This document shows positions 12,512 through 40,756 of a DNA stretch of 64,000 nucleotides, piece by piece. The position numbers and the translations under genes are program-made. This DNA comes from Rufibacter glacialis (GTDB lineage Bacteria > Bacteroidota > Bacteroidia > Cytophagales > Hymenobacteraceae), in assembly GCF_008271745.1 (NCBI RefSeq), contig NZ_VKKZ01000025.1, positions 62,001 to 126,000 on the forward strand, read 5' to 3'. The notes under the pieces are model-generated. The model was given only the letters and a program-made list of their open reading frames with translations, searched no databases and was not told the origin of the DNA. Positions within the stretch are counted from its first letter, which is position 1, and every line of letters begins with the position of its first letter.

Positions 12512-12862
12512 TTCCCAGACAGGAAGAAGTGATTTTCCATGTTTTAGATGCTGCCGGTGTTTAGCGGCTGTTTCACCCAGAATAGCCACTAAACGCCAGC
12601 AGGAATTTTTCTCAGGCTTTCTCCGTTTACGTCTTGTAAACAAGTCCTCCTTCTCCTTCCCCTGGAAAAAGAAGGTGCCCCAAAGAGCCACAAAAAGGAC
12701 ACGCTTTGGGTTGATTTTTTCCGGAATTAGGAACCAGAACTGGGTTTGGGGAAGGACTTTTAAAAAACTTTAATTTTCCGCAATATTTTGTTCTAAATTT
12801 TTCAATATCAGATAAATATTGATATCTTGCGCAATCGATTGCACATTCTACCTGTTTTAGAT
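12512..12862. other. intergenic region upstream of uxaA
   Basis: A 351-bp gap. Near its start, TTTAG (about 12559) and CTAAA (about 12589) frame an imperfect hairpin of the recurrent intergenic type, probably the end of the oxidoreductase transcript. The last 90 bp are AT-rich and hold the uxaA operator (12828-12845) and a probable -7 box just before it. Confidence 0.55.
12828..12845. promoter_or_regulatory. LacI-type operator upstream of uxaA
   Basis: TGCGCAATCGATTGCACA, with the perfect 12-bp palindrome GCAATCGATTGC at 12831-12842 and the central CG step typical of LacI/GalR operators. It lies 18 bp upstream of the uxaA start codon. TAAATATTG at 12813-12821, just ahead of it, resembles a -7 box, so a bound repressor would cover the transcription start. 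The same motif recurs at 20172, 40531 and 40739. A regulator for it is encoded at 42453-43508. Confidence 0.85.
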
Positions 12863-14509
12863 ATGTTACACAGATTTTTGAAAATCCATCCGAATGACAA
12901 TGTGCTGGTAGCACTCACGGATTTAAGAAAAGGCGAGACCGTAGAATTCGAAGGTTCTCAGATTGTTTTGGTGGATGACATCCAGGCCAAACACAAGTTC
13001 GCCCAAACGCCCCTGGCCGCCGGTGACGAGATCCTCATGTACGGCTCCCTGGTGGGCAAGGCGGTCTATGACATTCCCCAGGGCGGTGTGCTGTCCACGG
13101 CCAACGTGCAGCACCAGGTACACGGCTTCACCGGGAAAACCAAAACCATTGGCTGGACTGCCCCAGACGTGTCTAAGTGGGTGAACAGGACCTTCATGGG
13201 CTACCACCGCGAAGACGGCCAGGTAGGAACGGGCAACTACTGGCTCGTGATCCCCTTGGTGTTCTGCGAGAACCGCAACGTAGACATCATCAAACAGGCG
13301 TTCTTAGACGAACTGGGCTTTGGCCAGCGCGATGTCTACAAATCATACGTGCAACAGATGGTGGACCTGTACCAGTCGGGCAACACTGAGGCCATTGGCA
13401 CGCTTACGTTGCAAAAAACCACGGCCCCGGTGCAGCGCCGCGTGTTTGAGAACATAGACGGCATCAAGTTCCTGACCCATGAAGGCGGTTGCGGCGGTAT
13501 CAGACAAGACTCTGATATGCTGTGCGCACTGTTGGCGGGTTATATCCACCACCCCAACGTGGCCGGTGCCACCGTGCTGAGCCTGGGCTGCCAGAACGCG
13601 CAGGTGAGCATCCTGGAAGAAAAGATTAAAGCCTTGAACCCCAACTTCTCCAAGCCCCTGATTGTGCTGGAACAGCAGAAAGAAGGCACGGAGGAGGAAA
13701 TGATGTCCAAAGCTATCCGCCAGACGTTCCTGGCCTTGATAGAGGCCGATAAACTGACCCGCAAACCCGCCCCGTTGAGCAAGCTCTCCATTGGCTTGGA
13801 GTGCGGCGGCTCAGACGGTTTCTCTGGAATTTCCGCGAACCCCGCTATTGGCCATACTTCTGATATTCTGGTGGCCCTGGGCGGCAAGACGGTTCTTTCT
13901 GAGTTCCCGGAACTGTGCGGCGTGGAGCAGGAACTGATCAACCGCTGCGAGAAAGAAGAATCTGCTGACCGTTTCGTGTCTCTCATGCGCGCCTATGCCA
14001 AGTCGGCTGAGGCGGTAGGCTCTGGCTTTGACATGAACCCCAGCCCGGGCAACATCCGGGACGGCTTGATCACCGATGCCATCAAGTCAGCGGGGGCAGC
14101 CAAAAAAGGAGGAAACTCCCCTATTGTTGACGTGCTGGACTACCCGGAATACGTGACCAAGCCTGGCTTGAACCTGCTGTGCACCCCGGGCAACGACGTG
14201 GAATGCACCACGGCCCTGGTAGGCTCAGGCACCAACATTGTGCTGTTCACCACCGGCTTAGGCACGCCCACCGGTAACCCCATCACTCCGGTTATCAAGA
14301 TTTCCTCTAACACCAAACTGGCGCAGCGCATGCCAGACATCATTGACATTGACACCGGTGCGGTGATCTCAGGCGAGAAAACCATTGAGGAGATGGGCGA
14401 AGACGTACTGGACTTCATCATTGAGGTAGCCAGCGGCCGCATTGAGACCAAGGAGAAAACCCTGCAGCAAGACGACTTTATTCCGTGGAAACGCGGGGTA
14501 TCCTTGTAA
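12863..14509 (+). CDS. uxaA: altronate dehydratase
   Basis: A 548-residue cytoplasmic enzyme that removes water from D-altronate to give 2-keto-3-deoxy-D-gluconate, the third step from galacturonate. I use the ATG at 12863 (MLHRFLKIHPNDNVLVAL); an upstream in-frame TTG would place the start inside the operator. The N-terminal SAF domain covers about 1-95, and the large UxaA/GarD catalytic part follows with conserved cysteine and histidine positions (THEGGCGGIRQDSD, LGLECGGSDGFSG-like, GTPTGNPITPVIKI). It lies about 29 kb from uxaB and uxaC but shares their putative operator type. A clean terminator follows it. Confidence 0.95.
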   Translation: MLHRFLKIHPNDNVLVALTDLRKGETVEFEGSQIVLVDDIQAKHKFAQTPLAAGDEILMYGSLVGKAVYDIPQGGVLSTANVQHQVHGFTGKTKTIGWTAPDVSKWVNRTFMGYHREDGQVGTGNYWLVIPLVFCENRNVDIIKQAFLDELGFGQRDVYKSYVQQMVDLYQSGNTEAIGTLTLQKTTAPVQRRVFENIDGIKFLTHEGGCGGIRQDSDMLCALLAGYIHHPNVAGATVLSLGCQNAQVSILEEKIKALNPNFSKPLIVLEQQKEGTEEEMMSKAIRQTFLALIEADKLTRKPAPLSKLSIGLECGGSDGFSGISANPAIGHTSDILVALGGKTVLSEFPELCGVEQELINRCEKEESADRFVSLMRAYAKSAEAVGSGFDMNPSPGNIRDGLITDAIKSAGAAKKGGNSPIVDVLDYPEYVTKPGLNLLCTPGNDVECTTALVGSGTNIVLFTTGLGTPTGNPITPVIKISSNTKLAQRMPDIIDIDTGAVISGEKTIEEMGEDVLDFIIEVASGRIETKEKTLQQDDFIPWKRGVSL

Positions 14510-14520
14510 CACCTCCTCTG

Positions 14521-14553
14521 GAAACAGGCCCCGGTTTAAAAAGGGCCTGTTTC
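14521..14553 (+). terminator. terminator after uxaA
   Basis: GAAACAGGCCC (14521-14531) pairs perfectly with GGGCCTGTTTC (14543-14553), followed by TTATTTA. It begins 12 nt after the uxaA stop and separates uxaA from fbp. Confidence 0.85.
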
Positions 14554-14684
14554 TTATTTACCTTAGGCCTTGTCTTTTTACCGCTGCAGTTGCCTGGCAC
14601 CTGCGGCCATGGAGACAGGGCCTTCTTTTTTCACGTATCTTTCCACCAAACTATAGAGATAAATCACCTAACTCCTGTTACCGT

Positions 14685-15674
14685 ATGAATGATGCATTAG
14701 CCCTGCCCGTAGGCACCACCCTAGACCGATTCATCATGCGAAAGCAAGAGCAGTTCCCGTATGCCACGGGCGAACTGTCACAACTGCTGCGCGATCTGGC
14801 CCTGGCCGCCAAAATAGTGAGCCGTGAGATCACCCGCGCCGACCAGGATACCATGGGCTCTAACGGGGAGCAGAATGTGCAGGGCGAGGAGCAGCAGAAG
14901 CTGGACCTGATCGCCAACATCAGGTTCATCAGGGCCTTGCGCAACGGCGGCGAGGTCTGCACCATAGTCTCTGAGGAAGATGAGGACATTATCCATACCG
15001 GCAACCAGAACGCCAAATACATTGTGGCCATGGACCCGCTGGACGGTTCCTCCAACATCTCGGTGAACATTCCTATTGGCACCATCTTCTCTATTTACCG
15101 CCGCATCTCTGAGGTAGGGCAAAACGGCACCCTGGAAGACTGCCTCCAAAAAGGCACACAGCAAGCCGCCGCGGGGTACATTCTCTATGGCGCCTCTACC
15201 ATGCTGGTGTACACCACCGGCCATGGGGTGAACGGTTTCACCTATGAACCGTCTTTAGGGGAGTTCTTCCTCTCGCACCCAGACATCAAGATCCCGGCCA
15301 ACGGCAACCAGTACTCCTGCAACGACGCCAACGTGAGCAATTTCCCCTTGGGAATCCAGAACTACCTGGCATTCTGCCGAGAGCAGAAATACTCCTCGCG
15401 CTACATAGGCTCTTTGGTGGCCGACTTCCACCGCAATTTGCTCAAAGGCGGCATTTACTTCTACCCTGCCTCAGCGAAAAACAAAACCGGGAAACTGCGC
15501 CTGCTCTATGAATGCAACCCCCTTGCGTTTATTGCAGAACAGGCCGGCGGACAGGCCACCGACGGGATCCACCGTATTTTAGACAAAGTACCCACTGAAC
15601 TCCATGAGCGCTGCCCACTGGTGATTGGCTCCTCTGAGATGATTGAGAAAGTAAAGAAATACATGACGCTGTAA
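14685..15674 (+). CDS. fbp: fructose-1,6-bisphosphatase, class I
   Basis: A 329-residue gluconeogenic phosphatase that hydrolyses fructose-1,6-bisphosphate to fructose-6-phosphate. The start at 14685 (MNDALALPVGTTLDRFIM) gives the normal family length; the frame remains open further upstream, but that part lacks family similarity. The metal-binding and phosphate-binding signature MDPLDGSSNISVNIPIGTIF lies near residues 108-127, and the C-terminal substrate region contains KNKTGKLRLLYECNP. It follows uxaA after a terminator. Uronate catabolism yields only three-carbon products, so this enzyme would be needed to rebuild hexose phosphates. Confidence 0.95.
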   Translation: MNDALALPVGTTLDRFIMRKQEQFPYATGELSQLLRDLALAAKIVSREITRADQDTMGSNGEQNVQGEEQQKLDLIANIRFIRALRNGGEVCTIVSEEDEDIIHTGNQNAKYIVAMDPLDGSSNISVNIPIGTIFSIYRRISEVGQNGTLEDCLQKGTQQAAAGYILYGASTMLVYTTGHGVNGFTYEPSLGEFFLSHPDIKIPANGNQYSCNDANVSNFPLGIQNYLAFCREQKYSSRYIGSLVADFHRNLLKGGIYFYPASAKNKTGKLRLLYECNPLAFIAEQAGGQATDGIHRILDKVPTELHERCPLVIGSSEMIEKVKKYMTL

Positions 15675-15685
15675 CCGCGCCATCT

Positions 15686-15828: not shown

Positions 15829-16506
15829 CTATAGGTAATCAGAATATTTCTTGGGTTGCAGGGCTCTTTTCCAGAACCGGATGCGTTTGATTTCCCCGTT
15901 GAACCAGGAACGTTTATCCATGCGGGTACCAATAGAGGTTTTGGCCGAGGCAGGGAGAGGCATATACTCTATCTTACCTGATAGTTCCAGTTGTCCGTTC
16001 ACGTACCCTCGCATTTCTTTGTCTTTGTAGGTAAGCGTCATGGTAGCCCACTCCCCTACCGGATGGGTTTTGCTGGAATCAATGAGCGTGAGCGAACCAT
16101 TATCGGTGCTCATGAAAAAATCAGCGTACCATTGGTTCCGGTTGTTCAGGCGAAGTTCCAGCAGGATCCGGCGCTGCCTGGTGGCTGGGTCTTCCAGGTG
16201 CAGGAACCGTTGCTCCACGTTGTTGGGCCAGGCCGCATGGGGCTTGAATACGACTTCAATGGAAAACTCTTCGGCTCCGGCAATGGGGTTATGGTCTACC
16301 AACAACCCGTCATCTACGCCATCAAAAGAAACTACCCGGGCACCGCCTTTGCCTTGAATGACCTTAGGCTCACCCAAGACAGTGGTAGGATGTCCGCCCA
16401 CGGTGGGGAATCCAGCGAAGTTCCACCTAATGGGTTTCTGCACCGAACAGGAGCAAAGACAGCTCAAGACCAAGCCCCAGGACAAGAAGTAGAGAAGGAT
16501 TTTCAT
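15829..16506 (-). CDS. LamG/concanavalin-like lipoprotein
   Basis: A 225-residue lipoprotein with the lipobox LSCLCSC near residue 20. Residues about 55-220 form a LamG/Laminin_G_3-type beta-sandwich: VVSFDGVDDGLLVDHNPIAG, FSIEVVFKPH, WATMTLTYKDKEMRGYVNGQ, and GEIKRIRFWKRAL. Such domains bind carbohydrate or act as small lectin-like modules. It is the last minus-strand gene of the pectin locus, 132 bp downstream of a CE12 acetylesterase, so a role in binding pectin fragments at the surface is plausible but unproven. Confidence 0.82.
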   Translation of the reverse strand: MKILLYFLSWGLVLSCLCSCSVQKPIRWNFAGFPTVGGHPTTVLGEPKVIQGKGGARVVSFDGVDDGLLVDHNPIAGAEEFSIEVVFKPHAAWPNNVEQRFLHLEDPATRQRRILLELRLNNRNQWYADFFMSTDNGSLTLIDSSKTHPVGEWATMTLTYKDKEMRGYVNGQLELSGKIEYMPLPASAKTSIGTRMDKRSWFNGEIKRIRFWKRALQPKKYSDYL

Positions 16507-16638: not shown

Positions 16639-17397
16639 CTACTGCTTTACCTGTGGTCTTACAATTCTATCCGCTAATCCCACTTTTTGGGCTTTCATCT
16701 CGGCTAAGACAATCTGGGCCATTTCGCGCGCTCCCAACTCATTGAAATGGGTATCATCCACTTTGCCTTTGGGGTAGTTGGGGTGTTCTTCGGGCTGGAG
16801 GTGCACGAACAGGAGTTTAGAGGCCTCGGGGCCCAACTTCCGAAGCAGTTCCTGACTTTTGCCGTCCAGGTCAAGCAAGGCGACCTTCTGCCTTTTGGCC
16901 ACCGACCGCACCAGATTGGAGTACACGGCGTGGGTGTCTTCCAGCTTGCCGGTTGCATCAAACTTACGGCGGGCGGCGGGCGTGATCAGCACCGGAGCCA
17001 CGTTCTTCTTTCTGGCCTCGGTGATGAAACGCTCCAGGTTGGTCTGGAATTCGGCTTCAGTGGTCGCGCTTTTCTTGGTGGGTATCTCGTCATTGTGCCC
17101 GAACTGGATAAACAGGTAATCTCCGGTCTTCATGGAAGAGGCCACGGGTTGCCAAAGCTTGCCATCTATGAAGGTGCGGGTGCTTCGGCCGTTTTTGGCA
17201 TGGTTTTCCACTTTCACGGTAGAATCAAAGAAGTACTTGAAGGGCATGCCCCACCCCGTTTCAGGGTAGTGCCTGGTTTCTTTGATAGACATGGTGGAGT
17301 CTCCAATGAGATAGACGGTGACAGGCGCATTTTCCCGGGCTAGGAAAGACATCAGCCCCAGGCAGCACAACAACAGAAGAGTGAAGGTAATTTTCAT
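16639..17397 (-). CDS. rhamnogalacturonan acetylesterase-like SGNH hydrolase (CE12)
   Basis: A 252-residue exported esterase that should remove acetyl groups from rhamnogalacturonan or homogalacturonan. A signal peptide covers about 1-20. SGNH blocks are all present: YLIGDSTMS (nucleophile Ser near residue 35), NGRSTRTF (Gly), FGHND (Asn near residue 101) and VDDTHFNELGA (Asp and His near residue 218). It is paralogous to the enzyme at 22482-23270, with the same motif order. It lies between the LamG lipoprotein and the VOC/esterase pair. Confidence 0.92.
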   Translation of the reverse strand: MKITFTLLLLCCLGLMSFLARENAPVTVYLIGDSTMSIKETRHYPETGWGMPFKYFFDSTVKVENHAKNGRSTRTFIDGKLWQPVASSMKTGDYLFIQFGHNDEIPTKKSATTEAEFQTNLERFITEARKKNVAPVLITPAARRKFDATGKLEDTHAVYSNLVRSVAKRQKVALLDLDGKSQELLRKLGPEASKLLFVHLQPEEHPNYPKGKVDDTHFNELGAREMAQIVLAEMKAQKVGLADRIVRPQVKQ

Positions 17398-17623: not shown

Positions 17624-18022
17624 TTACCATTCCTGTCGGGCCAGCATGGGCGCCCCGCGTTTGCAAAGTTGCAGGGCCAGGCCCCAGGGGTCCCGCAGCA
17701 TGATGAGGTGCGAACCGTCTTCCAGATGCTGGTTTGTTACCTCAGTTGCCCCGGCGGCGCAGAGGCGGTCTTTGTCTAGGGTAGGATTCTCAGAGACGAA
17801 GGCCAGGTGCACCAGCAATGGGTTCATGGTGCGGTAGGGCGGAACCTCATGGGCGGGATTCAGGTAAATTTCTACCATGATACGCCCGCTGTCATCAGCA
17901 AGGAAAGTGGTGAACGGCGCTTCCTTCATTTGGCGTACCACACGCAGGCCCAGGTGCTGCACGTACCAGGCCGACATGGCCACTGGGTCTTCTACGTTGA
18001 GGGCGAAATGTTCTAATTTCAT
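17624..18022 (-). CDS. VOC/glyoxalase-fold protein
   Basis: A 132-residue single-domain VOC-superfamily protein with two beta-alpha-beta-beta-beta units. The opening KLEHFALNVEDPVAMSAWYV and the end FLRDPWG-like segment (MLRDPWGLALQL) are typical, with metal-ligand candidates at His5 and near Glu54 and His74. Its start overlaps the stop of the upstream esterase gene by 4 nt (ATGA), so the two are translationally coupled. The substrate is unknown; coupling suggests a role connected to sugar or ester degradation. Confidence 0.85.
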   Translation of the reverse strand: MKLEHFALNVEDPVAMSAWYVQHLGLRVVRQMKEAPFTTFLADDSGRIMVEIYLNPAHEVPPYRTMNPLLVHLAFVSENPTLDKDRLCAAGATEVTNQHLEDGSHLIMLRDPWGLALQLCKRGAPMLARQEW

Positions 18023-20019
18023 AGAGAGGTTTGTTTGATGCGGCCGCCGCTTTTCTTTACCAGATCTGGTAGGTCATAATACTGGAGAATCCCCTGCACC
18101 ACGTGAGAGAACATGTCTTGTTGCAGGGGATTGGTAAGGAAGGTCTGGTAGGTGGTAAGGGTATTAGACAAAGTGGCCTGGGTTATGCGGTGATCCAGGA
18201 AAACCGCGTGCGTCACCACCGGACCATACACGCCCTCGGCCTCCACGTGCACCGGCAGCTTTGCCAAGCTTTTCTGGCTTTTGAGGAAATCCAGCACCGA
18301 AGTCAGGTCTTGCACCCGTTGGGCCAGGAGCGGCCGTTTCAGGTGAAGGCTCAGCACGGCGTTGCGGTATTCACTGCTCCAGTACTTGGCGTCATTCAGT
18401 TTGGGGTCATCTTTGGTTTCGCCAATGCCCCGCAGATCCGCCAGCACCAGCACCGTACCGGCCGCCATTTCCTTCTGGATCAGGGCTTCGTTTTTGGCCA
18501 GCGTCTCCATGCCTTTGCCGGCATCGGTTAACCGGAGTACGATCCTGGAAGGCGCCTTATTCCCCACCGGTGCATACACCATCACCGGAACCGGCAATTC
18601 GCTCTGGCGCATCACCACCCTTTTCTCCAGCCGGTACTGCCCCGTCTGGCTTTCGCCGCTCAGGTCCGTGAAAACAGGGGCCTGGTTCAGCTGCAACCCG
18701 ATCACCTCCCGTACTTTTGTTTTCAGTTTGCTTTCGTTCTGCTCGTTGAGGAAGGCTTGGCGTTTAGGGGCTAACTCCTGGAAAAGGGCGAAATTCAGTT
18801 TCTGAATGGTGGCCTCGGTGGAGAAGGCGGTGTTGACCTGCCCGGTTTTGGTGGCCAGCAGGTCTTTCTCAGGGAGCGCCCCTACCTGCCCTTCTTTTAC
18901 CGGGCGGCTGTCCTGGTACAGCCACTTCCTGAACCAGGTGACGGCTTCCTCGCGCTTGGGCTGGGTAATGCCATGGCCGTCTGGCCACACAAAGAGCTTC
19001 ACCTTCTCGGGCTCCTGCAGGGTATGGTATACCTTTTGGAGTTCCTCAAAGCCTTTGAGGGTGCCGTAATGGTCCACGAAATCATTTTCCGCAGCCAGGA
19101 TAAGCACCGGTTTGGGCGCCGCCGCGATGATGAAATCCGCCATTTCTAAATTCCCTTCGCCAGGCATGTACTGGCAGCCGTCCTGCGAGCCGGCAACTTC
19201 AATGTAGCGGTCGCGCTGGGTAAAGTAGCTGCAAGGGGCGGCCACCTTGATGCGGTCATCATAGGCCATGAGGTACATGGTTTGGGTGCCGCCCCCTGAG
19301 TTGCCCAAGGCGCCTATCCTGGTTTTGTCCACCTCAGGCCGGGACTCCAGGTAATCAAGGCCCCGAACGTTGTCCCAAAGCATGTATGCGGCCACGCTGG
19401 TACCTACCAAGGTGGCGCCGGCGTTGAGTAAGGTATGTTCAGTGGTAGAGCCGCGGGTAAGGCTTTTGCCGGTGGAGTCCGTGAGTTGCACCCGCTCCCC
19501 CTGTGAAAAGGGATCAACGGACAGCACCACAAACCCGTTTCGGGCGAAGAGGCGGGCGGTTTTCTGGTAAGACTCAGTGGCCTTGGCCGTCATTTCATGG
19601 CCGTTCATCAGAATCACCCCCGGAAATGGCCCCTTGCCCTCCGGAAGGTACAGGTTAGCGGTCACGTGGTGGTTAGGCCGGCTCTCATAGACCAGGTTCT
19701 CAATGCGGTAACCGTCTTGTTTTGTCTGGCGCGTGATCTTGGCGTTTAGCGGCTGTTTTTGCGGAAACTGCCCCACCACGCGCAGGTATTCTTTTTTCAC
19801 ATCGGCCTGGTAAGCGCGTAAACTTTCTTTGGACGCCAAAGCCTGGGTAAGTTTCTCGTGCCGCTGGTCATACGCCCGGTGCAGGTCCCGTACCAGATAG
19901 GCATTGTACACCGTCTGCCCCTTGAAGGGCAGCACCTGGGCCTCTAGCTTCAGGGGGAGAGCCAAGAAGCACGCCAAAGCCGAGGAAAGGATGATATTTT
20001 TAGACTTACTATCTTTCAT
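18019..20019 (-). CDS. two-domain alpha/beta-hydrolase esterase (acetylxylan esterase or CE19-like)
   Basis: A 666-residue exported protein with a signal peptide (about 1-27). The first alpha/beta-hydrolase domain carries the nucleophile elbow GNSGGG (near residue 243), an acid candidate in ENDFVDH, and the catalytic His in PDGHGITQPKR. A second, degenerate alpha/beta domain covers about 400-650. The architecture resembles Bacteroides two-domain carbohydrate esterases such as CE19 pectin methylesterases; annotation pipelines often say acetylxylan esterase. A perfect copy of the regulon operator lies 152 bp upstream (20172-20187), tying it to pectin use. The exact ester bond attacked is not decided by sequence. 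Confidence 0.8.
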   Translation of the reverse strand: MKDSKSKNIILSSALACFLALPLKLEAQVLPFKGQTVYNAYLVRDLHRAYDQRHEKLTQALASKESLRAYQADVKKEYLRVVGQFPQKQPLNAKITRQTKQDGYRIENLVYESRPNHHVTANLYLPEGKGPFPGVILMNGHEMTAKATESYQKTARLFARNGFVVLSVDPFSQGERVQLTDSTGKSLTRGSTTEHTLLNAGATLVGTSVAAYMLWDNVRGLDYLESRPEVDKTRIGALGNSGGGTQTMYLMAYDDRIKVAAPCSYFTQRDRYIEVAGSQDGCQYMPGEGNLEMADFIIAAAPKPVLILAAENDFVDHYGTLKGFEELQKVYHTLQEPEKVKLFVWPDGHGITQPKREEAVTWFRKWLYQDSRPVKEGQVGALPEKDLLATKTGQVNTAFSTEATIQKLNFALFQELAPKRQAFLNEQNESKLKTKVREVIGLQLNQAPVFTDLSGESQTGQYRLEKRVVMRQSELPVPVMVYAPVGNKAPSRIVLRLTDAGKGMETLAKNEALIQKEMAAGTVLVLADLRGIGETKDDPKLNDAKYWSSEYRNAVLSLHLKRPLLAQRVQDLTSVLDFLKSQKSLAKLPVHVEAEGVYGPVVTHAVFLDHRITQATLSNTLTTYQTFLTNPLQQDMFSHVVQGILQYYDLPDLVKKSGGRIKQTSL

Positions 20020-20171
20020 TTAAACTTCCTCATCATCATCTAAGAAGGCCTTGGCGCCTGTGCACAAAAAGATAACATCCCCTCCTTCCCTGGGCCGGCA
20101 AGCTTTGAATCTTCTATAGCACCACGGTTTGCACCCGCTTGCGCCTTCTTATATCCTCTTTGAACTTCCTC

Positions 20172-20187
20172 GCGCAATCGATTGCGC
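20172..20187. promoter_or_regulatory. LacI-type operator upstream of the two-domain esterase
   Basis: GCGCAATCGATTGCGC is a perfect 16-bp palindrome, the most symmetric of the four copies in the window. It is 152 bp upstream of the esterase start codon on the minus strand. Unlike the other three copies, no TAAAT-type -7 box directly precedes it, so the promoter position here is unclear. Confidence 0.85.
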
Positions 20188-20200
20188 TTTCCTTTCTAAA

Positions 20201-23270: not shown

Positions 23271-23334
23271 TTTACACGTGTTTTTGAAAAAAGGAAGGGT
23301 AAACCGTATGGCCTACCCTTCTTATGACTTCTCT

Positions 23335-28190: not shown

Positions 28191-28198
28191 GGCGCGTT

Positions 28199-30453: not shown

Positions 30454-30459
30454 GGGGGT

Positions 30460-32132: not shown

Positions 32133-33422
32133 TTACTTAGATACTTTCACCCGCACCGGTTGCGCGAGCTCTTCCGCGGTATCCTGGATGTATTGCTTGA
32201 ACTGTTCTTCCGTCTTGATGCCGTTCTGCTCCAGTTCCCAGGCGGCCAGAAAATAATAGCTGGCCCGGCCGTTGGAAGGTTTCAACTGAACCACGTGGCT
32301 CAGAGGGTCTTCCGGGAAGGACATGAAATCATTAGGGTGGAAAAGCACGGCAATACCTATGTGGTCGGGCGGCGTGTTCAGGCTCTGCTTCCCGTAGGTG
32401 TACAGGAAGCCAAACCGCTTACCGGCTTCGCCTTTGTCACTTACCAAAGGCGCATTTTTGTCTTTGATGAGGCCAGTGGCCAGGTTCTCCGGCTGTCCGC
32501 CCGCTAGCCTAATCTGGTGGTGGGTCAACCTGGTTCCGGCATGGATGCTGAGCTGCGACTGCACGTTCAGTTTATGGCTTCCCACTTGCCAGCCGTAGTA
32601 GTCGGTGAGAATGGAAGAGTAGACCGGCCCGTTCTGGGTGATCTTGCTGTAGGTACTGTCGGTTTTCTCAACCCGCACCGCTTTGCCCTCATGGTACATG
32701 GCCAGCGAACCCACGCCCAGGGCTTTGCCCACCTTGAGCACATCCATGCCCCAGGGCTGCGGGGTATGGTAGGAGTCATACCCGTCTAAGCCTGCACTTT
32801 GCAAAGCCATTTCCGGCGTCTTTTTCCCGAACACATCTATGGCGTTGCGCCAGTCCAGGTAAAAGCGGTAGCCTACCTTGTCAGATTCCCAACCTGGGCC
32901 TTCGTAGCGCAGGTAATAGGAATGGTCGGTGAGTTCGGTGGGCACGCGCAGGGAGTCAATGTTCTGGAAGTCGCCTCCTATGTATTTGCGGTTTTCCCAG
33001 AGGCCGCCCACTTTCTTGGACAGCTCGGCCTGGGTGCGTTTCGGGTACGTTTTCGGTGAATCGCCTTCGGCTAGCGGCCGGATGGTCAAGGTACGGGTTT
33101 CGCCGGCTTTCATCTGGTCCAGCACGAACACCACTCCCCGGTTCTCAGCGTCTTTCGCATTATACTGGCTCGGGATCTCCTGGCTACCGTCCAACACCAC
33201 CAGCCTTTGGCGAGCGGCAGCCGTGAGTTGCCGGGGCAGGTCTTCTTCTTTGACCACCACTAGTACGCTTTCCCGCTCCCGTTTCAAGGGGTTGGAGACT
33301 TCCACGGTAAAAGAGGCAGGGATAGTAGAGGAGCCGGTATTCTGGCTGGAAGTACAGCCAGCGCTTAACAGTAGTGCTAAGCTTGCTAGTCCGTTCATCC
33401 AGAAGGGGGATTTCTTGATCAT
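32133..33422 (-). CDS. DUF4861-family lipoprotein
   Basis: A 429-residue lipoprotein, starting at the ATG at 33422 (MIKKSPFWMNG); lipobox LLLSAGC near residue 22. The body matches the DUF4861 family as I recall it (SFTVEVSNPLKRERESVLV near the start, YLRYEGPGWESDKVGYRFYLDWRNAIDVFGK in the middle, and IGIAVLFHPND later). Members are repeatedly found in pectin and ulvan degradation loci of Bacteroidota, without a settled function to my knowledge. It lies between the SusCD operon and the PL1 lyase gene on the same strand. A role as an uncharacterised enzyme or sugar-binding protein is inferred from location only. Confidence 0.85.
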   Translation of the reverse strand: MIKKSPFWMNGLASLALLLSAGCTSSQNTGSSTIPASFTVEVSNPLKRERESVLVVVKEEDLPRQLTAAARQRLVVLDGSQEIPSQYNAKDAENRGVVFVLDQMKAGETRTLTIRPLAEGDSPKTYPKRTQAELSKKVGGLWENRKYIGGDFQNIDSLRVPTELTDHSYYLRYEGPGWESDKVGYRFYLDWRNAIDVFGKKTPEMALQSAGLDGYDSYHTPQPWGMDVLKVGKALGVGSLAMYHEGKAVRVEKTDSTYSKITQNGPVYSSILTDYYGWQVGSHKLNVQSQLSIHAGTRLTHHQIRLAGGQPENLATGLIKDKNAPLVSDKGEAGKRFGFLYTYGKQSLNTPPDHIGIAVLFHPNDFMSFPEDPLSHVVQLKPSNGRASYYFLAAWELEQNGIKTEEQFKQYIQDTAEELAQPVRVKVSK

Positions 33423-33560
33423 AGTAAAGGGGTGAATCTTGTAGAGAAACTGCCAGTTTCTAATAGAAATAGACAACTCCTCTTCTTTCAATACTTGTAA
33501 GACAAAAACCTGAAAAGAACATAGCCATCACCTTTAGGTGGTATATTCCCTTTAGATTAG

Positions 33561-33599
33561 TAGGGATAAGTACAGTTTATAAAGCTGCACTTATCCCTA
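33561..33599 (-). terminator. hairpin after the SusCD-lipoprotein operon
   Basis: TAGGGATAAGT (33561-33571) pairs perfectly with ACTTATCCCTA (33589-33599), with an extra inner CAG/CTG pairing. It starts 14 bp past the stop codon of the surface lipoprotein gene. No clear T-run follows on the minus strand, so termination efficiency is uncertain. Confidence 0.6.
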
Positions 33600-33612
33600 G
33601 TTTAATATTTGA

Positions 33613-35256
33613 CTACTTCACCCATCTAGGGTCACCAATGGAAGTACCTCCTACTCCTGCCGTTCTTAATTCAGAGCCAGCCGGCAAAGAAAAATCAGTA
33701 GTGGCGTGGGTCCAGCCCAAATCAATGGTTTTGTTATTGGCAAGCTGCACATAGGCTGGGAAAGTAAGCGGGGCCAAAGGTGAACCTCCTTCTAACTTGA
33801 AAAAGTTGTTGTTCATGAACTGCACCTCAGATCCGGTACCGGCCCGTAAAGCACTTGCTAGAACCGTTTGCCCTGCTTTAGGGGAATTCGCAATAATGCT
33901 GTTCTGCACAGTGAATATGACCGGAAGAGCATTTGCATCAAGAATAATATTGTCTCTGCCTCCAGACCCAAAACTGTTCAGGGTAACTTTATTGATGAGA
34001 ATGGTAGGTTTGACAGCTGGGGTATAATTGGTAGCCCAACTGATCAACCCTCTACCAGCCTCATTGAAAGTAGAATTGGTCACATCAAGACGATTGAAAT
34101 CCAGCCTATCTAGCATAAAGGTCTGGTAGCTGGAGACTGCATTTCTAGACACGATGGAATTGTCTACCTTGATGAAGTTTATTTTCTGAGATCCTCCAGC
34201 GGCCCCACGGTTAGCTCTCAAGAAAGTGTTGATAATATCATGGATATTAGAGTTTTCTACGGTGATAGAAGAAAGAGTTCCTGCCTCTGCATCAATATTG
34301 ATAAAGTAATCACCTACCGTGGTCCCAGCTGCATTTTTGCCGTCAAATTCAATGCCACTAACCTTTACCCCTGCCCCAGTTCCTTTCAGGGTGATTTCCT
34401 TGAAATGTACTTTGGTATTAGCCGGATTACCAGAGGTAGACTGTAATGTGACCATTTTACCTGCTATCAAAATGTTTGATGCATTGGCGGTGTACACTCC
34501 AGGCTCCAACCCAATCACATCTCCGTTTGCCGCACTCGCTACAATGGCCACCAGATCATCAGATGGGGAAACGGTGTACGTAAAGAGGCTTGGTTCTTTG
34601 GTAGTGAAGGTGATGGTTCCTTTACTTAGGGTTCCTGCAAAGATCTCAGCAGTATAGGAAGTGGTGGCGGTTAGATTGGTAACCAACAGTTGGTTCGCAG
34701 CTAAATCAGCGGGTGTAAGATTAATGGTTCTTGCCGTTCCGTTGGCAGGAGTGATGACGATTCGGGTCAAACCTGCAGAGGGACGCCAGTTCAGAAGGAC
34801 CGTTTTATCCTTTATTTCAGAAGAAAGAGGCGTGTTGAAAATTTGCTCCCCTCTGATACTGAAACGTGAGCTTACCAACCACTTTGATTCAGGGGAATTA
34901 CCCTTCGCATTGGTTTTAACCCTTGCAAAATAGTTTTCCTTGATGTTCAGTTGCTGGTTTGTGAAGGTGATCTTAGCCGTATCAGCCTGAGCCGTTAAGA
35001 TCACAGGTGTTTGAAACAAGGTATCCTTGGCTACTTCCACGGTGTAAGTGGATGTCCCGGCTACCGTGTTTGGCGGAGTTTTCCAGGTTAAAGTAACTTC
35101 TGTTTCGCCTGCATTGGAAGAAATCTCCCCACCGGGAATAAACATTCGCATGGGCTCCAGGTTCTCGTCATCTTCTTTACAGGAAGCAACCCCCAGGCCA
35201 ACCAGAAGCACCGCCGGATATATCATCTTAAAAAACTTTGATTTATTGGTTTTCAT
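33613..35256 (-). CDS. surface lipoprotein with Fn3 domains and DUF4957/DUF5123-type beta-helix
   Basis: A 547-residue lipoprotein with lipobox GLGVASC near residue 26. Two fibronectin type III-like domains (about 45-135 and 140-230) are followed by a right-handed repeat region (about 235-545) like DUF4957 and DUF5123: VIGLEPGVYTANASNILIAG, VKVSGIEFDGKN, VTNSTFNEAGRG, and VQNSIIANSPKAG. Proteins of this design stand beside SusCD in pectin loci and are thought to bind or hold galacturonan. No lyase catalytic residues are evident. It is the third gene of the susC-susD operon, 32 bp after susD. Confidence 0.85.
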   Translation of the reverse strand: MKTNKSKFFKMIYPAVLLVGLGVASCKEDDENLEPMRMFIPGGEISSNAGETEVTLTWKTPPNTVAGTSTYTVEVAKDTLFQTPVILTAQADTAKITFTNQQLNIKENYFARVKTNAKGNSPESKWLVSSRFSIRGEQIFNTPLSSEIKDKTVLLNWRPSAGLTRIVITPANGTARTINLTPADLAANQLLVTNLTATTSYTAEIFAGTLSKGTITFTTKEPSLFTYTVSPSDDLVAIVASAANGDVIGLEPGVYTANASNILIAGKMVTLQSTSGNPANTKVHFKEITLKGTGAGVKVSGIEFDGKNAAGTTVGDYFINIDAEAGTLSSITVENSNIHDIINTFLRANRGAAGGSQKINFIKVDNSIVSRNAVSSYQTFMLDRLDFNRLDVTNSTFNEAGRGLISWATNYTPAVKPTILINKVTLNSFGSGGRDNIILDANALPVIFTVQNSIIANSPKAGQTVLASALRAGTGSEVQFMNNNFFKLEGGSPLAPLTFPAYVQLANNKTIDLGWTHATTDFSLPAGSELRTAGVGGTSIGDPRWVK

Positions 35257-35288
35257 GTCTTTATCTGATTTTAAATCAAAAGCTGGGA

Positions 35289-37184
35289 TTAATTTCCGAA
35301 GTCTTGGCTTAACCTGAAGTTTGAGTTCAAAGCCGCAGTTGGAATTGGGAACAGTTCAGACTTGTTTTCCTTGAACTGGCTGCCGAAAGCTCTCAAAGCA
35401 CCACCTACACCACCAGCAGGATCTACGAATGAAGTATTGTAATGAGCTTCTGTGATAGCGGCAGCCCAATTCACCCGGGTGTATCCTGTCACAGTGGCCG
35501 TGGTAGGAGACGGTTTATACATCACCTGGTTCACGTTCCCGCTGATTGGAGTTCCGTTAGCACCCAAACCAGCCAGCAGGTCAAAATTCATCATTTCCTC
35601 TCTGGCAGTTACGCCCCTCCCCTGTAATACATTGGGCTTGAAATACACGTACTGAGGAACATTTGCGTATCGACCTGTTCTGGTCATCATTTGCTGCATT
35701 TTAGCCCTGGTTTCCAGAATAACGGGGCCAAGCAGCTTCCAACGGTACAAGTCATACTTCCGGATTCCCTCGCCTCCAAACTCCAGAAGTCTTTCTTTGA
35801 CGATAGTGTTGAAGAATCCTTCTTTGGTGGTGGGAATAGTTCCCATTCTGGCTTCATACCCCACGAAAGCTCTTTTTCGCACCTGTTGTAAGGCATCTAT
35901 TGCTTGAGGGGTAGGTCCGTTCAATTCATTTTCAGCCTCGGCAAACATGAGCAAAACATCTGCATATCTGATCAGAGGCCAATTGATGCCCAGCGTCTGG
36001 TTTGTTCCGGCAATGGTGGTCCAGTACTTTCTGAACTTGCCTTCCCGCATCACCAGCGGGGTGGTGAGGGTTTTGTTGTTGTTGGCCTCCACCTGGAAGT
36101 ACGCAATGGTCACGTCTCTTCTGGCATCACCAATTGAGTCAAACTCATAGAAATAGGTGGGTACGGCCTCAATCAAACCATTGGCCTGGCCATACGTGGT
36201 GTTGGCGGCGTTGATTCTAGGCCCGTTTCCATACCCCAACTTTGTATCAGTTCTGGCGTTACCTCCAAAGGCCCCTACTTCCCAGATTAACTCAAACGTT
36301 GGGTCCACCCTGGTTCCCCCGTGAATGGTACGGAACACGTTCTCATACACCGGGTTCAGGCGGTGATCTCCCTTCTGGATGATATCACGGGTTTCATTTC
36401 TGGCAATCTCATAGAATTCACGGTAGTTGCTTCTACGCTCCATCATCTTGGATTCTCTGCGCAAGGCATATCCTCCTCTGGCCAGTGCAATTCTGGCCCG
36501 CAGAGCTTTCACCGCTCCTTTTGTAACCCGGGTGGTTGGGTCTCCCGACTCTGATCTCCAGGGAACCAACGTAGCCGCTTGCGCCAGATCCGCTAACAAG
36601 CGGTCATAGATCACATCCTGGTTTGTTTTCTCAATGAACAGATCCGGAATATCAGAAGAAGGCTCAAACTGTGCGGGCACGTCTCCCCAGTTACGAATCA
36701 GTTCATGGTAGTACTGTGCCCGAAGGGTCAGGGCTTCGCCCAGGAACTTCCTCATCAAGGCCTGCTCTTCGGCTGACCCATTGGTGTAAACTTCAGACAG
36801 CGGAATATTTTTGATGCAGATGTTCGCCCGCTCAATCCCTCTGTACAATTGGTTGAATGGTGCCTCAATATCCGGGTTTCCAGGGGCTACGCTGAAGTGG
36901 GCAATACCTGTGCGGCTTTGTGGGTTATGGTCACCGCTCACCCTAAAGTCATCAGCAGCATTAGGGAAAAGAGTGGAGATCCTGCTACCGTATCCGTTAT
37001 CGCCGGGCAGCATGTTATATACGCCGGTTAAGGCAGAGTGGGTATTGGAGACGCTGGAGAAAACGGCACCCTGGTTGAGCACAGAATCATTCTCTATATC
37101 CAGAAAACTATCGCAGGCCGAGAACGTGAGGAAGCCTCCTAATGCGGCCGAAAACAGCAGGGACTTGATATATCTATTTTTCAT
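35289..37184 (-). CDS. SusD/RagB-family glycan-binding lipoprotein
   Basis: A 631-residue outer membrane lipoprotein with lipobox TFSAC near residue 23 and the typical CDSFLDIENDSVLN opening. TPR-like helices with the SusD signature cover most of the chain (LTGVYNMLPGD, YHELIRNWGDVP, RYADVLLMFAEAENELNGPT), and the C-terminus LFPIPTAALNSNFRLSQDFGN is standard. It caps the SusC porin and captures oligosaccharides. It begins 19 bp after susC. The surrounding enzymes make galacturonan or rhamnogalacturonan oligomers the expected ligand. Confidence 0.95.
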   Translation of the reverse strand: MKNRYIKSLLFSAALGGFLTFSACDSFLDIENDSVLNQGAVFSSVSNTHSALTGVYNMLPGDNGYGSRISTLFPNAADDFRVSGDHNPQSRTGIAHFSVAPGNPDIEAPFNQLYRGIERANICIKNIPLSEVYTNGSAEEQALMRKFLGEALTLRAQYYHELIRNWGDVPAQFEPSSDIPDLFIEKTNQDVIYDRLLADLAQAATLVPWRSESGDPTTRVTKGAVKALRARIALARGGYALRRESKMMERRSNYREFYEIARNETRDIIQKGDHRLNPVYENVFRTIHGGTRVDPTFELIWEVGAFGGNARTDTKLGYGNGPRINAANTTYGQANGLIEAVPTYFYEFDSIGDARRDVTIAYFQVEANNNKTLTTPLVMREGKFRKYWTTIAGTNQTLGINWPLIRYADVLLMFAEAENELNGPTPQAIDALQQVRKRAFVGYEARMGTIPTTKEGFFNTIVKERLLEFGGEGIRKYDLYRWKLLGPVILETRAKMQQMMTRTGRYANVPQYVYFKPNVLQGRGVTAREEMMNFDLLAGLGANGTPISGNVNQVMYKPSPTTATVTGYTRVNWAAAITEAHYNTSFVDPAGGVGGALRAFGSQFKENKSELFPIPTAALNSNFRLSQDFGN

Positions 37185-37203: not shown

Positions 37204-40200
37204 TTAGAAAGTAATATTTACACCACCCACAACATAGCGGCTGCGCGGATAAGCAGCGTAGTCTACCCCTGGGGTTAAGGCACTGCGTCTGGTGTTCGCC
37301 TCAGGATCGTATCCAGAGTAGCCCGTGATGGTAGCCAGGTTATTCACCGTTCCATACACCCTAAGTTTAGAGATCACGCGCGTTCTTTTCACCAGTGTCT
37401 CCGGCAAAGTATAGCCAAGAGTCAGGTTAGAGATCCTCAGGAAAGAACCGTCTTCAATCCCGAACGAGTGCAGGAAGTACTGCCCTCTTCCTGGAGTCCA
37501 ATACTTAGTGTCTTTGTTCATTTCGGCCAACACCTTTGGGTCTGTTACCAGTGCCCCGTTGTTGTCATACCATTTCCAGCGGTCATTCATGAGAGTAAGC
37601 ATGTTGTTGTCTCTTTGCTCATACAGCGTGGTAAATTCAAGCCGGTTGGCATTGTAGACTTTGGCACCCACAGAGAAATTCATGAACAAGCTCATATCAA
37701 ACCCTTTGTAGGTTACCTGCTGGTTCAACCCTCCAAAGAACTTGGGCTGGTTGTTCCCCAACACTTTTCTGTCATCTAAGCCAATCAATGAAGTTCCGTT
37801 GTCTGGCGTAAGGTCTTTCAGTTTCAAGTCACCAGGTTGCGGCACTCTGTTACCCAGGGCAATGTTCTGACTATTGGCTACCCCTTCTTTCAGGACATAG
37901 GTATAGACGTTGGTGGTGGGGTTAAAAGTAGTAGTGAAGTCATCAAGGGTGTAGAAGCCATCTGTTTCATAACCGAAATACTGACCAACCGGGCCACCTA
38001 CTTCCACCAGGAAGTCTTGGTAAGAGCTGGTAATCCAGCCAGAAGAAACAGTGTATGATTTTAAGGGCTGACCTTTGGTGTCAATACCCAGGCTCACAAT
38101 TCTGTTCTTTTGAGTAGTGATGTTGAAATTGGAAGTCCAGGTGAGATCTCCCTTGTCAATAATCACTCCGTCCAACTGCAGCTCTATTCCTCTGTTGCGG
38201 GTGCTTCCTACGTTTTGTTGTTGTGTTGGGTATCCGCTGGTAGAAGGGATCTGGGCTAACAACAAAAGTTGTTTAGAGGAGTTCTCATAGAAATCTATGC
38301 TACCGTTCAATCTTGAGTTCCATAAGGAGAAGTCAAGAGCCAGGTTTTTGGAAACGGTGGTTTCCCATTGCAGGAACCTATTCGCCAAAACAGGAGGCAC
38401 TAGGCCAGGGGTAACCGCCTCTGTGTAAGCATATCCATCATTGGTGGTTGTGCCAAAAGTGGTTCTCCACTGGTCGGCATCTATGCCGTTATTACCCACT
38501 GCCCCAAAACCGAAGCGGAACTTCAGGTCGTTCAACCAGCTTTTTGTACCGGCCATGAAAGCCTCATCTCCTATGTGCCAGGCGAGTGACATTGTGGGGA
38601 AGAAACCGGAGTTCCTTTCAGGGGCAAACAAAGAAGAAGCATCACGTCTGAAGGCTACATTCAACCGGTATTTTTCTTTGTAGTTGTACCCCACGCTTCC
38701 GAAAAGAGAGAACAAAGAGGCCCCAAATTCACCGGTGGTGGCTGGGCTCTGGATCAAACCCGCCGGAGGTGTGGCAGACTGAATATTAGAGAACGCTTGA
38801 TCAGGTGTGATATCAATAGGCAACCATCTTACCTGTACCCCACCCACGTAACCGGCTCTTTTCCAGATTTCCTGCCCTAAAAGCACATTCACGCCATGGT
38901 CTTCTCCAAAGTTGGTGCGGTAGTTAAGGGTGTTTGAGTTAGTGATGGCGTATTGCTCTCTGGAATTCTGGTTCACCACGGGCTGGGCGTTGTTCTGACG
39001 GGCCACTGCGGTTACCACTCCATTGAATTCATTTACCCTTCTGTCTGTGGTATTAATCCCGAATACACTTTTGAAGGAAAGGTTTTTGATCAGTTCAATG
39101 GTACCATAGCCGTTAAAAATCAGATCATTCCGTCTATCATACCGCAATTCCTGGTTCGCCAACAACACCGGGCTGGTCAGGTTGGTCAAGGCAAAGTAGT
39201 TAGGATCAAACTCATCTACCTGGTCTTCAAATCCTGGCGCTACAAACGGTCTGAAACGAACAGAATTTCGCAAGCGGTTGGTGCTTTGCGTTCCAGTGCT
39301 GGAGGTCCCAACCCCTTCTATCTGCTGACGGCTATAACGGGTAGAAAAACCAACTTTCACCCGGTCATTGATGGAATGGTCAAATTTAAGCGAGGCCAGG
39401 GTACGGGTGTTTCCTGAGTTGAGCATGATTCCCTCTTCATCTACATGGTTCAAGGTAAAATTGAAGGAAGTCACTTTAGAACCTCCGGTCACCGCTACCA
39501 CGTGGGTTTGGCTCAATGCCGCCCGACCGAAGACTTCTTCCTGCCAGTCAGTGGCAGGCATGTTTCTATAAATATCCAAATCCTCAAACCGTCCGTACCG
39601 GTCCCTGAAACTGTTCCTTACCTCCTCGTTCTGGTTGTAGTTATACACCTGGTACTGGTATTGCACAAAATCATAAGGGCTCATCACCGGGAGCTTGTTC
39701 ACGATCTGGCGCACCCCAGCAAACCCGTTATAGGTTACTTGGGTAGGCATCTCGCGGCCACCTTTGGTGGTAATCACCACCACCCCGTTTGATCCTCTTG
39801 CCCCATAAATAGCAGTAGAGGCTGCATCTTTTAACACATCAATGGTTTGGATTTCCTGGGGGGAGATGAATGACAGGGCGTTCTCCACCTGAATACCATC
39901 CACAATATATAAAGGCTCATTGCTTTGGGTGATAGAGTTACCGCCCCGCACCCTAATGGTGATTTCCGCACCAGGCTGCCCTTCTGAGGTATTCACCTGC
40001 ACCCCGGCTAACCTACCGGCCAAAGCCTCGGCGGCCGTACTTACCGGCACATCCTGCAACTGTTTCGCATTTACTGACGAAACTGAACTGGTCAATTCTT
40101 TTCTGGTTACGGTTTGATATCCTACCACCACCACTTCCTCAATGGCTTTAGCATCGGTGGTCAAGGCTACGTTGATGGTGGTTCTGCCATTGATGGGCAC

Positions 40201-40464
40201 CTCCTGTGTCACGAAACCTATGTAAGAGAATACCAGGGTACCGGCACCGCTGGGTACCGCCAGGGAGTAGTTTCCGTCAATGTCGGTGGCATTGGCGGTG
40301 GAGGTACCCTTTAAGAGCACCGTCACGCCCGGCAGACCTTCCTTTTTCTCATCGGTTACTTTCCCTGTGATCGTAACAGTCTGAGCAAAGGCACCCACTA
40401 CCGCCGTGAAGAAAAAAGTCAGCACCAGCAGGCACCGGCTCTTCTTAAGTAATGCTTGTCGCAT
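37204..40464 (-). CDS. SusC/RagA-family TonB-dependent outer membrane transporter
   Basis: A 1086-residue outer membrane porin that imports oligosaccharides with SusD. I use the ATG at 40464; a TTG three codons upstream is possible. Signal peptide to about residue 28 (VVGAFAQ). A carboxypeptidase-regulatory-like domain (about 30-110, ITGKVTDEKKEGLPGVTVLL) precedes the TonB-dependent plug (about 115-235, with EPLYIVDGIQV and the SusC hallmark GSNGVVVITTKGG), then the 22-strand barrel ending in ...VVGGVNITF. An operator and promoter-like boxes lie 67-112 bp upstream, divergent from kduI, so import and catabolism are switched together. Confidence 0.96.
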   Translation of the reverse strand: MRQALLKKSRCLLVLTFFFTAVVGAFAQTVTITGKVTDEKKEGLPGVTVLLKGTSTANATDIDGNYSLAVPSGAGTLVFSYIGFVTQEVPINGRTTINVALTTDAKAIEEVVVVGYQTVTRKELTSSVSSVNAKQLQDVPVSTAAEALAGRLAGVQVNTSEGQPGAEITIRVRGGNSITQSNEPLYIVDGIQVENALSFISPQEIQTIDVLKDAASTAIYGARGSNGVVVITTKGGREMPTQVTYNGFAGVRQIVNKLPVMSPYDFVQYQYQVYNYNQNEEVRNSFRDRYGRFEDLDIYRNMPATDWQEEVFGRAALSQTHVVAVTGGSKVTSFNFTLNHVDEEGIMLNSGNTRTLASLKFDHSINDRVKVGFSTRYSRQQIEGVGTSSTGTQSTNRLRNSVRFRPFVAPGFEDQVDEFDPNYFALTNLTSPVLLANQELRYDRRNDLIFNGYGTIELIKNLSFKSVFGINTTDRRVNEFNGVVTAVARQNNAQPVVNQNSREQYAITNSNTLNYRTNFGEDHGVNVLLGQEIWKRAGYVGGVQVRWLPIDITPDQAFSNIQSATPPAGLIQSPATTGEFGASLFSLFGSVGYNYKEKYRLNVAFRRDASSLFAPERNSGFFPTMSLAWHIGDEAFMAGTKSWLNDLKFRFGFGAVGNNGIDADQWRTTFGTTTNDGYAYTEAVTPGLVPPVLANRFLQWETTVSKNLALDFSLWNSRLNGSIDFYENSSKQLLLLAQIPSTSGYPTQQQNVGSTRNRGIELQLDGVIIDKGDLTWTSNFNITTQKNRIVSLGIDTKGQPLKSYTVSSGWITSSYQDFLVEVGGPVGQYFGYETDGFYTLDDFTTTFNPTTNVYTYVLKEGVANSQNIALGNRVPQPGDLKLKDLTPDNGTSLIGLDDRKVLGNNQPKFFGGLNQQVTYKGFDMSLFMNFSVGAKVYNANRLEFTTLYEQRDNNMLTLMNDRWKWYDNNGALVTDPKVLAEMNKDTKYWTPGRGQYFLHSFGIEDGSFLRISNLTLGYTLPETLVKRTRVISKLRVYGTVNNLATITGYSGYDPEANTRRSALTPGVDYAAYPRSRYVVGGVNITF

Positions 40465-40530
40465 AGGTAACAATTAGGTTTTTGATAAAACGAAAGGAAA
40501 ATGGAGCAAAGCGGCTTCTGCGGATTAATC

Positions 40531-40548
40531 TGCGCAACCGATTGCATA
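40531..40548. promoter_or_regulatory. LacI-type operator of the susCD operon
   Basis: TGCGCAACCGATTGCATA differs from the uxaA copy mainly at the centre (ACCGAT) and in the outer bases. It lies 67-84 bp upstream of the susC start and overlaps the end of the putative -7 box, so binding there would block transcription start. Confidence 0.82.
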
Positions 40549-40576
40549 TTTACTATTATTTGAAACCAATAACAAA
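40545..40576 (-). promoter_or_regulatory. probable susC promoter
   Basis: On the minus strand, TTTG (40573-40576 as CAAA on plus) is followed after 20 bases by TAAATATG (40545-40552 as CATATTTA). This matches the Bacteroidota pattern TTTG-n19-TAnnTTTG with one mismatch in the -7 box. The operator overlaps its downstream end. Confidence 0.55.
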
Positions 40577-40725
40577 ATTTACCCTCGTTTTTTTGACACT
40601 TTTTCAAACAAACCTCCTAAACAGGCTTGTGTTTACCATTTTTTCAGAAACAATACTCCCTCTTATTTTTATTAGAAAGTGACCACTCAAATTTTTTTCT
40701 TCCCTATCTTAGTCCAACCCATTGA

Positions 40726-40733
40726 TAAATTTG
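40726..40733 (+). promoter_or_regulatory. probable -7 box of the kduI operon
   Basis: TAAATTTG matches TAnnTTTG exactly and ends 5 bp before the operator at 40739. No clear TTTG -33 box is found at the standard distance; only a T-rich run lies there. Confidence 0.55.
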
Positions 40734-40738
40734 TAATT

Positions 40739-40756
40739 TGCGCAAACGATTACACC
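40739..40756. promoter_or_regulatory. LacI-type operator of the kduI operon
   Basis: TGCGCAAACGATTACACC is the least symmetric copy (the right half reads CGATTACA in place of CGATTGCA), but it keeps the central AACGATT pattern. It starts 32 bp upstream of the kduI start codon and directly after a -7 box, a position suited to repression. Confidence 0.78.

Follow-up and report, generated by a model that had tools for sequence, protein, structure and literature searches.

A conserved palindrome points to a probable LacI-family regulon for pectin use in Rufibacter glacialis and related Cytophagales

Does a single LacI-family protein govern the pectin and uronate genes of Rufibacter glacialis, a member of the Hymenobacteraceae within the Cytophagales? 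We addressed this question in a stretch of 64,000 nucleotides (hereafter the window; contig NZ_VKKZ01000025.1, positions 62,001–126,000), which makes up 1.2% of the 5.32-Mb genome. Four palindromes had been spotted in it by eye, and an earlier note, which had the window alone, placed them upstream of uxaA, a two-part esterase gene, susC, and kduI and proposed that the LacI-family protein encoded at 42453–43508 controls all four units. Our comparisons extend these four sites to a predicted regulon for pectin import, depolymerisation, and catabolism in Rufibacter-like bacteria and further Cytophagales. With a probability of roughly 0.85, the palindromes are operators of this protein, which would repress the kduI-to-transporter, susC, uxaA, and probably esterase units until relieved by a cytoplasmic intermediate. 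As a prediction the regulon has good comparative support, and this type of control is known, the closest precedents being KdgR, UxaR, and UxuR of Bacteroides and UxuR2 of Algoriphagus.

The four palindromes are genuine, rightly placed, and above chance. The predicted uxaA operator occupies 12828–12845 on the forward strand, 17 bp 5' of the ATG at 12863, and the predicted kduI-operon operator occupies 40739–40756 on the same strand, 14 bp 5' of the ATG at 40771. On the reverse strand lie the predicted operator of the susC operon (40531–40548) and the probable operator of the esterase operon (20171–20188, of which the earlier note had given the 16-mer at 20172–20187). A symmetric score matrix trained on relatives' sites (40 distinct out of 97, window sites excluded) assigned them 28.9 (uxaA), 25.1 (susC), 22.6 (esterase), and 22.3 (kduI), whereas the next-best window position reached 4.7, in agreement with the earlier statement that the window holds no clear further copy. 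Among 60 random Markov-1 sequences of 64 kb each, the top score had a median of 9.2 and a maximum of 20.4; a second set of 40 gave a mean of 10.3 and a maximum of 16.5. Allowing up to three mismatches to the first site, we counted 6 strand-hits in the window versus 0.01 expected. Base pairing about the central CG amounts to 8/9 at both uxaA and the esterase, 6/9 at susC, and 5/9 at kduI. The training sites were chosen by pattern likeness, at most 500 bp from kduI and at uxaA, so that the matrix depends on the pattern; the independent check on it is a pattern-free 9-mer count, in which one motif 9-mer occurred in 27 of 34 diversified kduI upstream regions, whereas none of 200 random draws yielded more than 6.

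The protein encoded at 42453–43508 on the forward strand combines an N-terminal LacI-type helix-turn-helix (Pfam PF00356, E = 6.1e-14, residues 13–58) with a C-terminal periplasmic-binding-protein-like sensor (Peripla_BP_1, residues 72–313; Peripla_BP_3, residues 180–343). Palindromic sites with a central CG close to predicted target genes, the kind of site that LacI/GalR proteins bind, were present in our matrix, promoter, and upstream scans. Because its gene is the third one 3' of the kduI operator, the regulator is predicted to be autoregulated. It is 94% identical to a Sabulibacter ruber protein, 87–93% identical to eight full-length Rufibacter matches, and 66–71% identical to relatives in Belliella and Indibacter. 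The recognition helix TASTVSRAL is unchanged in 48 of 49 relatives with more than 60% identity, the exception being Indibacter L079. Among 198 genomes sampled across the phylum, 24 contained a match at E ≤1e-90; matches outside the Cytophagales reached at most 57% identity, some with variant palindromes close by.

The association between motif and regulator was clearest upstream of kduI. A peptide-pattern search of genome contigs returned 52 loci encoding regulator relatives, which by record title include Rufibacter, Pontibacter, Cesiribacter, Fulvivirga, Belliella, and Chryseolinea; the named loci L040–L091 overlap with our G-numbered genomes (e.g. L091 with G015), and the two samples are not independent. 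All 41 loci in which kduI lies beside the regulator relative carry a site matching at least 16 of 18 positions within 400 bp upstream of kduI, and 38 carry two. These upstream regions hold 79 sites (4.8 per kb); the remainder of the loci holds 26 (0.03 per kb). By matrix, a distal second site is present upstream of kduI in 40 of the 41 and faces susC where susC is present. Eight of the other 11 loci (L051, L052, L056, L058, L062, L065, L081, and L090) have a site of at least 16/18 within 900 bp 5' of the regulator gene; L063 and L087 have none in that interval, and L088 has a single 16/18 match, the regulators of L087 and L088 being only 40% and 36% identical to that of the window. On this comparative evidence, we count kduI and susC among the firm predictions.

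The same grade applies to uxaA. In all 14 loci with a close orthologue (L111–L124, 76–95% identical, own locus L110 excluded) among 39 genomes, a site matching 17 or 18 of 18 positions lies just 5' of the gene. The remaining 11 uxaA loci (L125–L135, 56–64% identical, one of them a fragment) have no site of at least 16/18. Conservation at the esterase was patchier. Among seven close orthologues elsewhere, the best upstream score was at least 20 in two (G002, 26.9; G001, 22.2, about 800 bp away) and degenerate in two (G008, 15.8; G006, 14.5), and three had no site (G005, 4.3; G010, 3.9; G013, −2.8). Five of the congeneric clusters fetched lack the esterase, and four of the five (G003, G004, G011, and G012, not G009) have a strong site 5' of the glyoxalase-like gene, which in the window directly follows the esterase. 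The comparison thus upholds the earlier claim for the motif-regulator link and for uxaA, kduI, and susC; for the esterase operon it is weaker, and we regard this operon as a probable target.

We then considered how the motif is distributed over whole genomes. Matches to TGYGCAANCGWTTRCRYA with at most one mismatch were counted across 39 relatives' genomes, with the reversed pattern as control; the 16 genus genomes gave 122 strand-hits for the motif versus 6 for the reversed pattern. In the 14 genus genomes with a regulator orthologue, own genome included, we hand-tallied 84 distinct places (the window site at 20171, with two mismatches, is not counted). Contexts were read from fetched stretches in seven clusters and at the distant sites, and were assigned by nearness to uxaA or regulator matches in the other clusters. 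The pectin/uronate cluster accounts for 62 places, distant pectin enzyme genes for 10, a GntR gene for 5, and other LacI genes for 4; of the last 3, one falls within a reading frame, one lies 5' of a LamG/Por-tail protein, and one is close to a contig end. In these 14 genomes the motif is therefore not equally common far from uronate genes, as 72 of the 84 places belong to the first two groups. The ten distant sites lead to nine genes: two for pectinesterases, two for PL1-CBM77 lyases, two for GH95 enzymes, and three for further lyases. One of the last three has a Pfam Pel9A match and carries the site within its predicted frame; the other two are 43% and 77% like the window pectate lyase and match no Pfam lyase model, and one of them lies about 570 bp from its site. 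Taken together, the upstream regions of relatives link motif, regulator, and pectin/uronate genes across Cytophagales loci, and the motif points to pectin genes outside the cluster.

In R. glacialis itself, three pattern scans covered the genome outside the window, and 17 selected matches were scored with the matrix. Among the matches listed, four of the five best sites lie inside the window; outside it we found C21:91396 (23.7) and a pair on C25 (21.9 and 21.3), the rest scoring at most 17.2, including C20:179377 (17.2) and C19:734414 (15.4), which sit within reading frames. The site at C21:91396, fifth of the best five, lies 173 bp 5' of a GntR-type regulator gene (gene, L282:11588–12601; site, L244:1997, equal to G000:C21:91396) beside a rhamnogalacturonan-type locus. 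Either TGTGCAATCGATAGCACA or a one-base variant occurs 170–174 bp 5' of the same GntR gene in G000 (own genome), G002, G009, and G010, as an island of identity amid diverged upstream sequence, and we take it for a probable operator. In the own genome, SusC/SusD-like genes (by eye) and genes for a sulfatase, a GH106 rhamnosidase, and a PcRGLX-type lyase lie downstream; on the opposite flank, G009 carries GH28 and GH88/105 genes. The motif predicts in this way a link to rhamnogalacturonan use, and a probable fifth site joins the four of the earlier target list.

The position of the operators relative to promoters was examined next. The Bacteroidota −7 consensus is TAnnTTTG, and three of the window sites had been described as lying beside a TAAAT-type −7 box. 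This is borne out at kduI, where a perfect TAAATTTG begins 13 bp 5' of the operator, and at susC with one mismatch to TAnnTTTG, where TAAATATG extends into the operator. At uxaA the description fits less well, the nearby TAAATATTG being one base longer than the consensus, and the esterase site has no −7-type box beside it. Across the contexts compared, raw matches to TAnnTTTG with at most one mismatch begin at −13 for 12 of the 41 distinct kduI contexts. For 14 of the 40 susC contexts they begin at −4 and overlap the operator, and no close position is shared by the 15 uxaA contexts. Promoter occlusion fits part of the set, because the consensus lies near or overlaps the operators in part of the kduI and susC contexts.

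From the computed motif, its positions, its conservation, and its co-occurrence with the regulator, we propose the following sequence of events. A regulator dimer would sit on the palindromes at or beside the promoters and block transcription of the kduI-kduD-lacI-uxaB-uxaC-kdgK-kdgA-transporter unit (which includes the regulator gene), the susC operon, and uxaA; the esterase operon would probably be blocked as well. The regulator would come off the DNA in response to a cytoplasmic intermediate. Our guess for this intermediate is 2-keto-3-deoxygluconate, which we consider the likeliest effector because the lyase branch (KduI and KduD) and the galacturonate branch (UxaC, UxaB, and UxaA) converge there.

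Several findings weigh against assigning the sites to this one protein. The susC and kduI sites are imperfect palindromes, and the esterase site is conserved in only part of the orthologues. The own genome contains seven LacI-family genes; operators of other LacI proteins have the same core, making cross-binding possible, and palindromes were found at two of the four own LacI loci that were read. G015, a Rufibacter, retains the kduI operator though about 73 C-terminal residues are all that is left of its regulator (L260:9369–9590; L091:10001–10222); its cluster keeps kduI, kduD, uxaC, kdgK, kdgA, and the transporter gene, and uxaB is not at that place. Outside the genus, G017 and G022, with an orthologue, gave 2 and 6 strand-hits, whereas G018, G019, and G023, in which no regulator match exceeds 47%, gave 5, 6, and 6, partly beside other LacI genes.

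The gene count, the operator kept in G015, and the mixed counts outside the genus, along with the palindromes of the LacI gene on C25, which reach 21.3 and 21.9 on the same matrix, would suit an alternative in which another LacI protein, or several jointly, read the sites and the local protein is just one reader. We consider this unlikely. The motif tracks the neighbourhood of the orthologue across the named families, and the recognition helix is nearly invariant. G007 and G015, whose best regulator matches are just 50% and 48% identical and which have no uxaA match, gave 1 and 3 strand-hits; G007 has other LacI genes, yet its one strand-hit lies beside one of them and is of the TGCGTAATCGATTACGTA type. 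In the own genome, two palindromes upstream of another LacI gene differ in their outer bases, which likewise favors the local regulator as the reader.

Slightly less likely still is that the regulator activates some units or acts in catabolite control like CcpA, a protein that can activate or repress. The solved chains closest to the regulator are those of CcpA; against this reading, some of the operators lie at or just 3' of likely −7 elements, which is a repressor position, and the targets are pathway-specific. Finally, that the palindromes are chance occurrences or a common genomic repeat has a negligible probability, as the 6/9 and 5/9 pairing of two sites is the one feature in its favor and the chance and reversed-pattern controls and the conservation contradict it.

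The repressor model prompts a closer look at the genes that it would control. On the forward strand, kduI and kduD (40771–42406) precede the regulator gene, and uxaB, uxaC, kdgK, kdgA, and a gene for a major facilitator superfamily (MFS) transporter follow it (43609–49692, assigned from NCBIfam models and gene gaps). KduI passes its NCBIfam cut-off, and the KduD protein passes that of a gluconate 5-dehydrogenase model and falls below those of the KduD models; in the second block, the tagaturonate reductase and glucuronate isomerase pass, and the kinase, aldolase, and transporter fall below. Gaps from kduI to the transporter gene range from −11 to 155 bp. In the interval 40400–50100, we counted 17 terminator-like sites versus 11.5 (SD 3.5) in shuffled sequences and 2 sigma-70 promoter-like matches versus 3.9.

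The TonB-dependent importer gene susC (37204–40473, reverse strand; Pfam Plug and CarbopepD_reg_2) is followed on the same strand by pectin genes at 20608–37184, with gaps of 6–242 bp from susC on. They encode SusD, SusE-like, and DUF4861 proteins, a lyase-like protein, two pectinesterases, a GH105-type enzyme, GH43 and GH28 enzymes, a GDSL esterase, and a pectate lyase. Pfam supports these assignments, among them SusD, GH28, GH43, both pectinesterases, GH88/105, DUF4861, and GDSL esterases, except at 20608–22308 and 30460–31890. The former, the pectate lyase, matches FlgD_ig alone in Pfam and the solved pectate lyase 9buj at E = 4e-77; the latter, the lyase-like protein, has no Pfam match and was named by eye. 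The esterase (18019–20019, reverse strand) is a two-part alpha/beta-hydrolase with Abhydrolase_7, AXE1, and DLH matches, and its operon probably includes, on the same strand, the genes for the glyoxalase-like protein (17624–18022; Glyoxalase), a GDSL esterase (16639–17397; Lipase_GDSL_2), and a LamG protein (15829–16506; Laminin_G_3). We infer that the kduI-to-transporter unit, the susC operon, and the esterase operon are each transcribed as one.

The altronate dehydratase gene uxaA (12863–14509, forward strand) matches Pfam GD_AH_C, GD_AH_second, and SAF; the Pfam family of the enzyme also covers galactarate dehydratase, and its sole NCBIfam match is galactarate dehydratase, below the cut-off. 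A gene for a second class 1 fructose-1,6-bisphosphatase (14685–15674, forward strand; Pfam FBPase) lies 3' of uxaA, its membership in the unit being uncertain; the other copy in the own genome is at C10:576086. The two genes adjoin in 12 of the 14 genus genomes that have uxaA, own genome included, and all 12 have a further copy elsewhere. A phosphatase in this position would fit growth on sugar acids whose entry points into metabolism are pyruvate and glyceraldehyde phosphate. A hairpin and, behind it, a T-rich stretch were recognised by eye between this gene and uxaA, where a terminator scan called no terminator, and the congener G007 has a second copy without an adjoining uxaA. Given the hairpin and the G007 copy, we dropped the phosphatase as a certain member of the regulon and list it as a possible one. 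On the other side, a Gfo/Idh/MocA oxidoreductase gene (11522–12511) lies directly 5' of uxaA, as it lies beside uxaA in all seven congeneric clusters fetched.

How does this predicted regulon compare with known systems? The KdgR, ExuR, and UxuR proteins of Proteobacteria and Bacillus control the same pathway genes and belong partly to different protein families with different operators, and Algoriphagus is of the same order as Rufibacter. PMC3878776 predicts three LacI regulators in Bacteroides thetaiotaomicron (KdgR, BT0487; UxaR, BT0824; UxuR, BT1434), names hybrid two-component regulators for its rhamnogalacturonan/pectin loci, and says that the Bacteroides KdgR regulon includes a few periplasmic or extracellular proteins; a comparative LacI-regulon study names the UxaR/UxuR/KdgR branch of Bacteroides (PMC4052901). 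By description, the Rufibacter protein resembles these regulators as a LacI-family member of the Bacteroidota predicted to control glucuronate and galacturonate genes. Bacteroides splits the task over several LacI proteins, whereas in Rufibacter a single motif stands at the genes for catabolism, SusC import, and pectin enzymes. According to PMC5507952, UxuR2 of Algoriphagus marincola HL-49 is a LacI protein predicted to control galacturonate and glucuronate loci; the likeness, again one of description, is that the predicted Rufibacter operators stand at galacturonate (uxaA) and 2-keto-3-deoxygluconate-forming (kduI) genes. The UxuR2 locus has a TRAP transporter and GH109, in contrast to the MFS transporter of the Rufibacter locus, and the word UxuR2 occurred in no other paper of the literature searched. 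By annotation, a pectin locus of Gramella flava has an exuR repressor (PMC5306329), and PMC12125979 concerns xylan and has no bearing on a pectin regulator. In the papers searched, most of them at the level of listed entries, we met no experimentally tested LacI-family pectin regulator in Bacteroidota. The predicted reach of the Rufibacter regulator is wider than that of its precedents.

A broader version of the regulon is more tentative, and we think it rather less probable than its failure: one LacI repressor that senses the cytoplasm may be the top pectin switch, acting directly on import, cleavage, and both uronate branches and, by way of the GntR gene, on a rhamnogalacturonan-type locus, and the kduI/susC operator pair may loop for repression. 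Such a switch would stand in for the hybrid two-component control predicted for pectin in Bacteroides. The two operators are spaced 208 bp apart in the window. We set helical phasing of this pair aside: over 40 loci with 22 distinct spacings, a period of 10.5 bp gave R = 0.48 (p ~0.006), but the spacings cluster by clade and periods of 10.0–11.0 bp perform alike (R = 0.44–0.48).

Two observations concern other LacI genes of the genome. At C25:9207 and 9415 (L036, L098, and L099), the palindromes TACGTAATCGATTACGTA and TATGTAATCGATTACGTA of another LacI gene are separated by exactly 208 bp, which is also the distance within the kduI/susC pair of the window. Two further sites of the form TGTGCCA(A/T)CGTTGGCATA, at C21:422086 and C20:92927 (L097 and L096), perhaps represent a separate small regulon; with genes named by eye, one separates a sugar-kinase-like gene from a LacI gene and the other falls in the first 50 bases of a predicted GH3-like frame.

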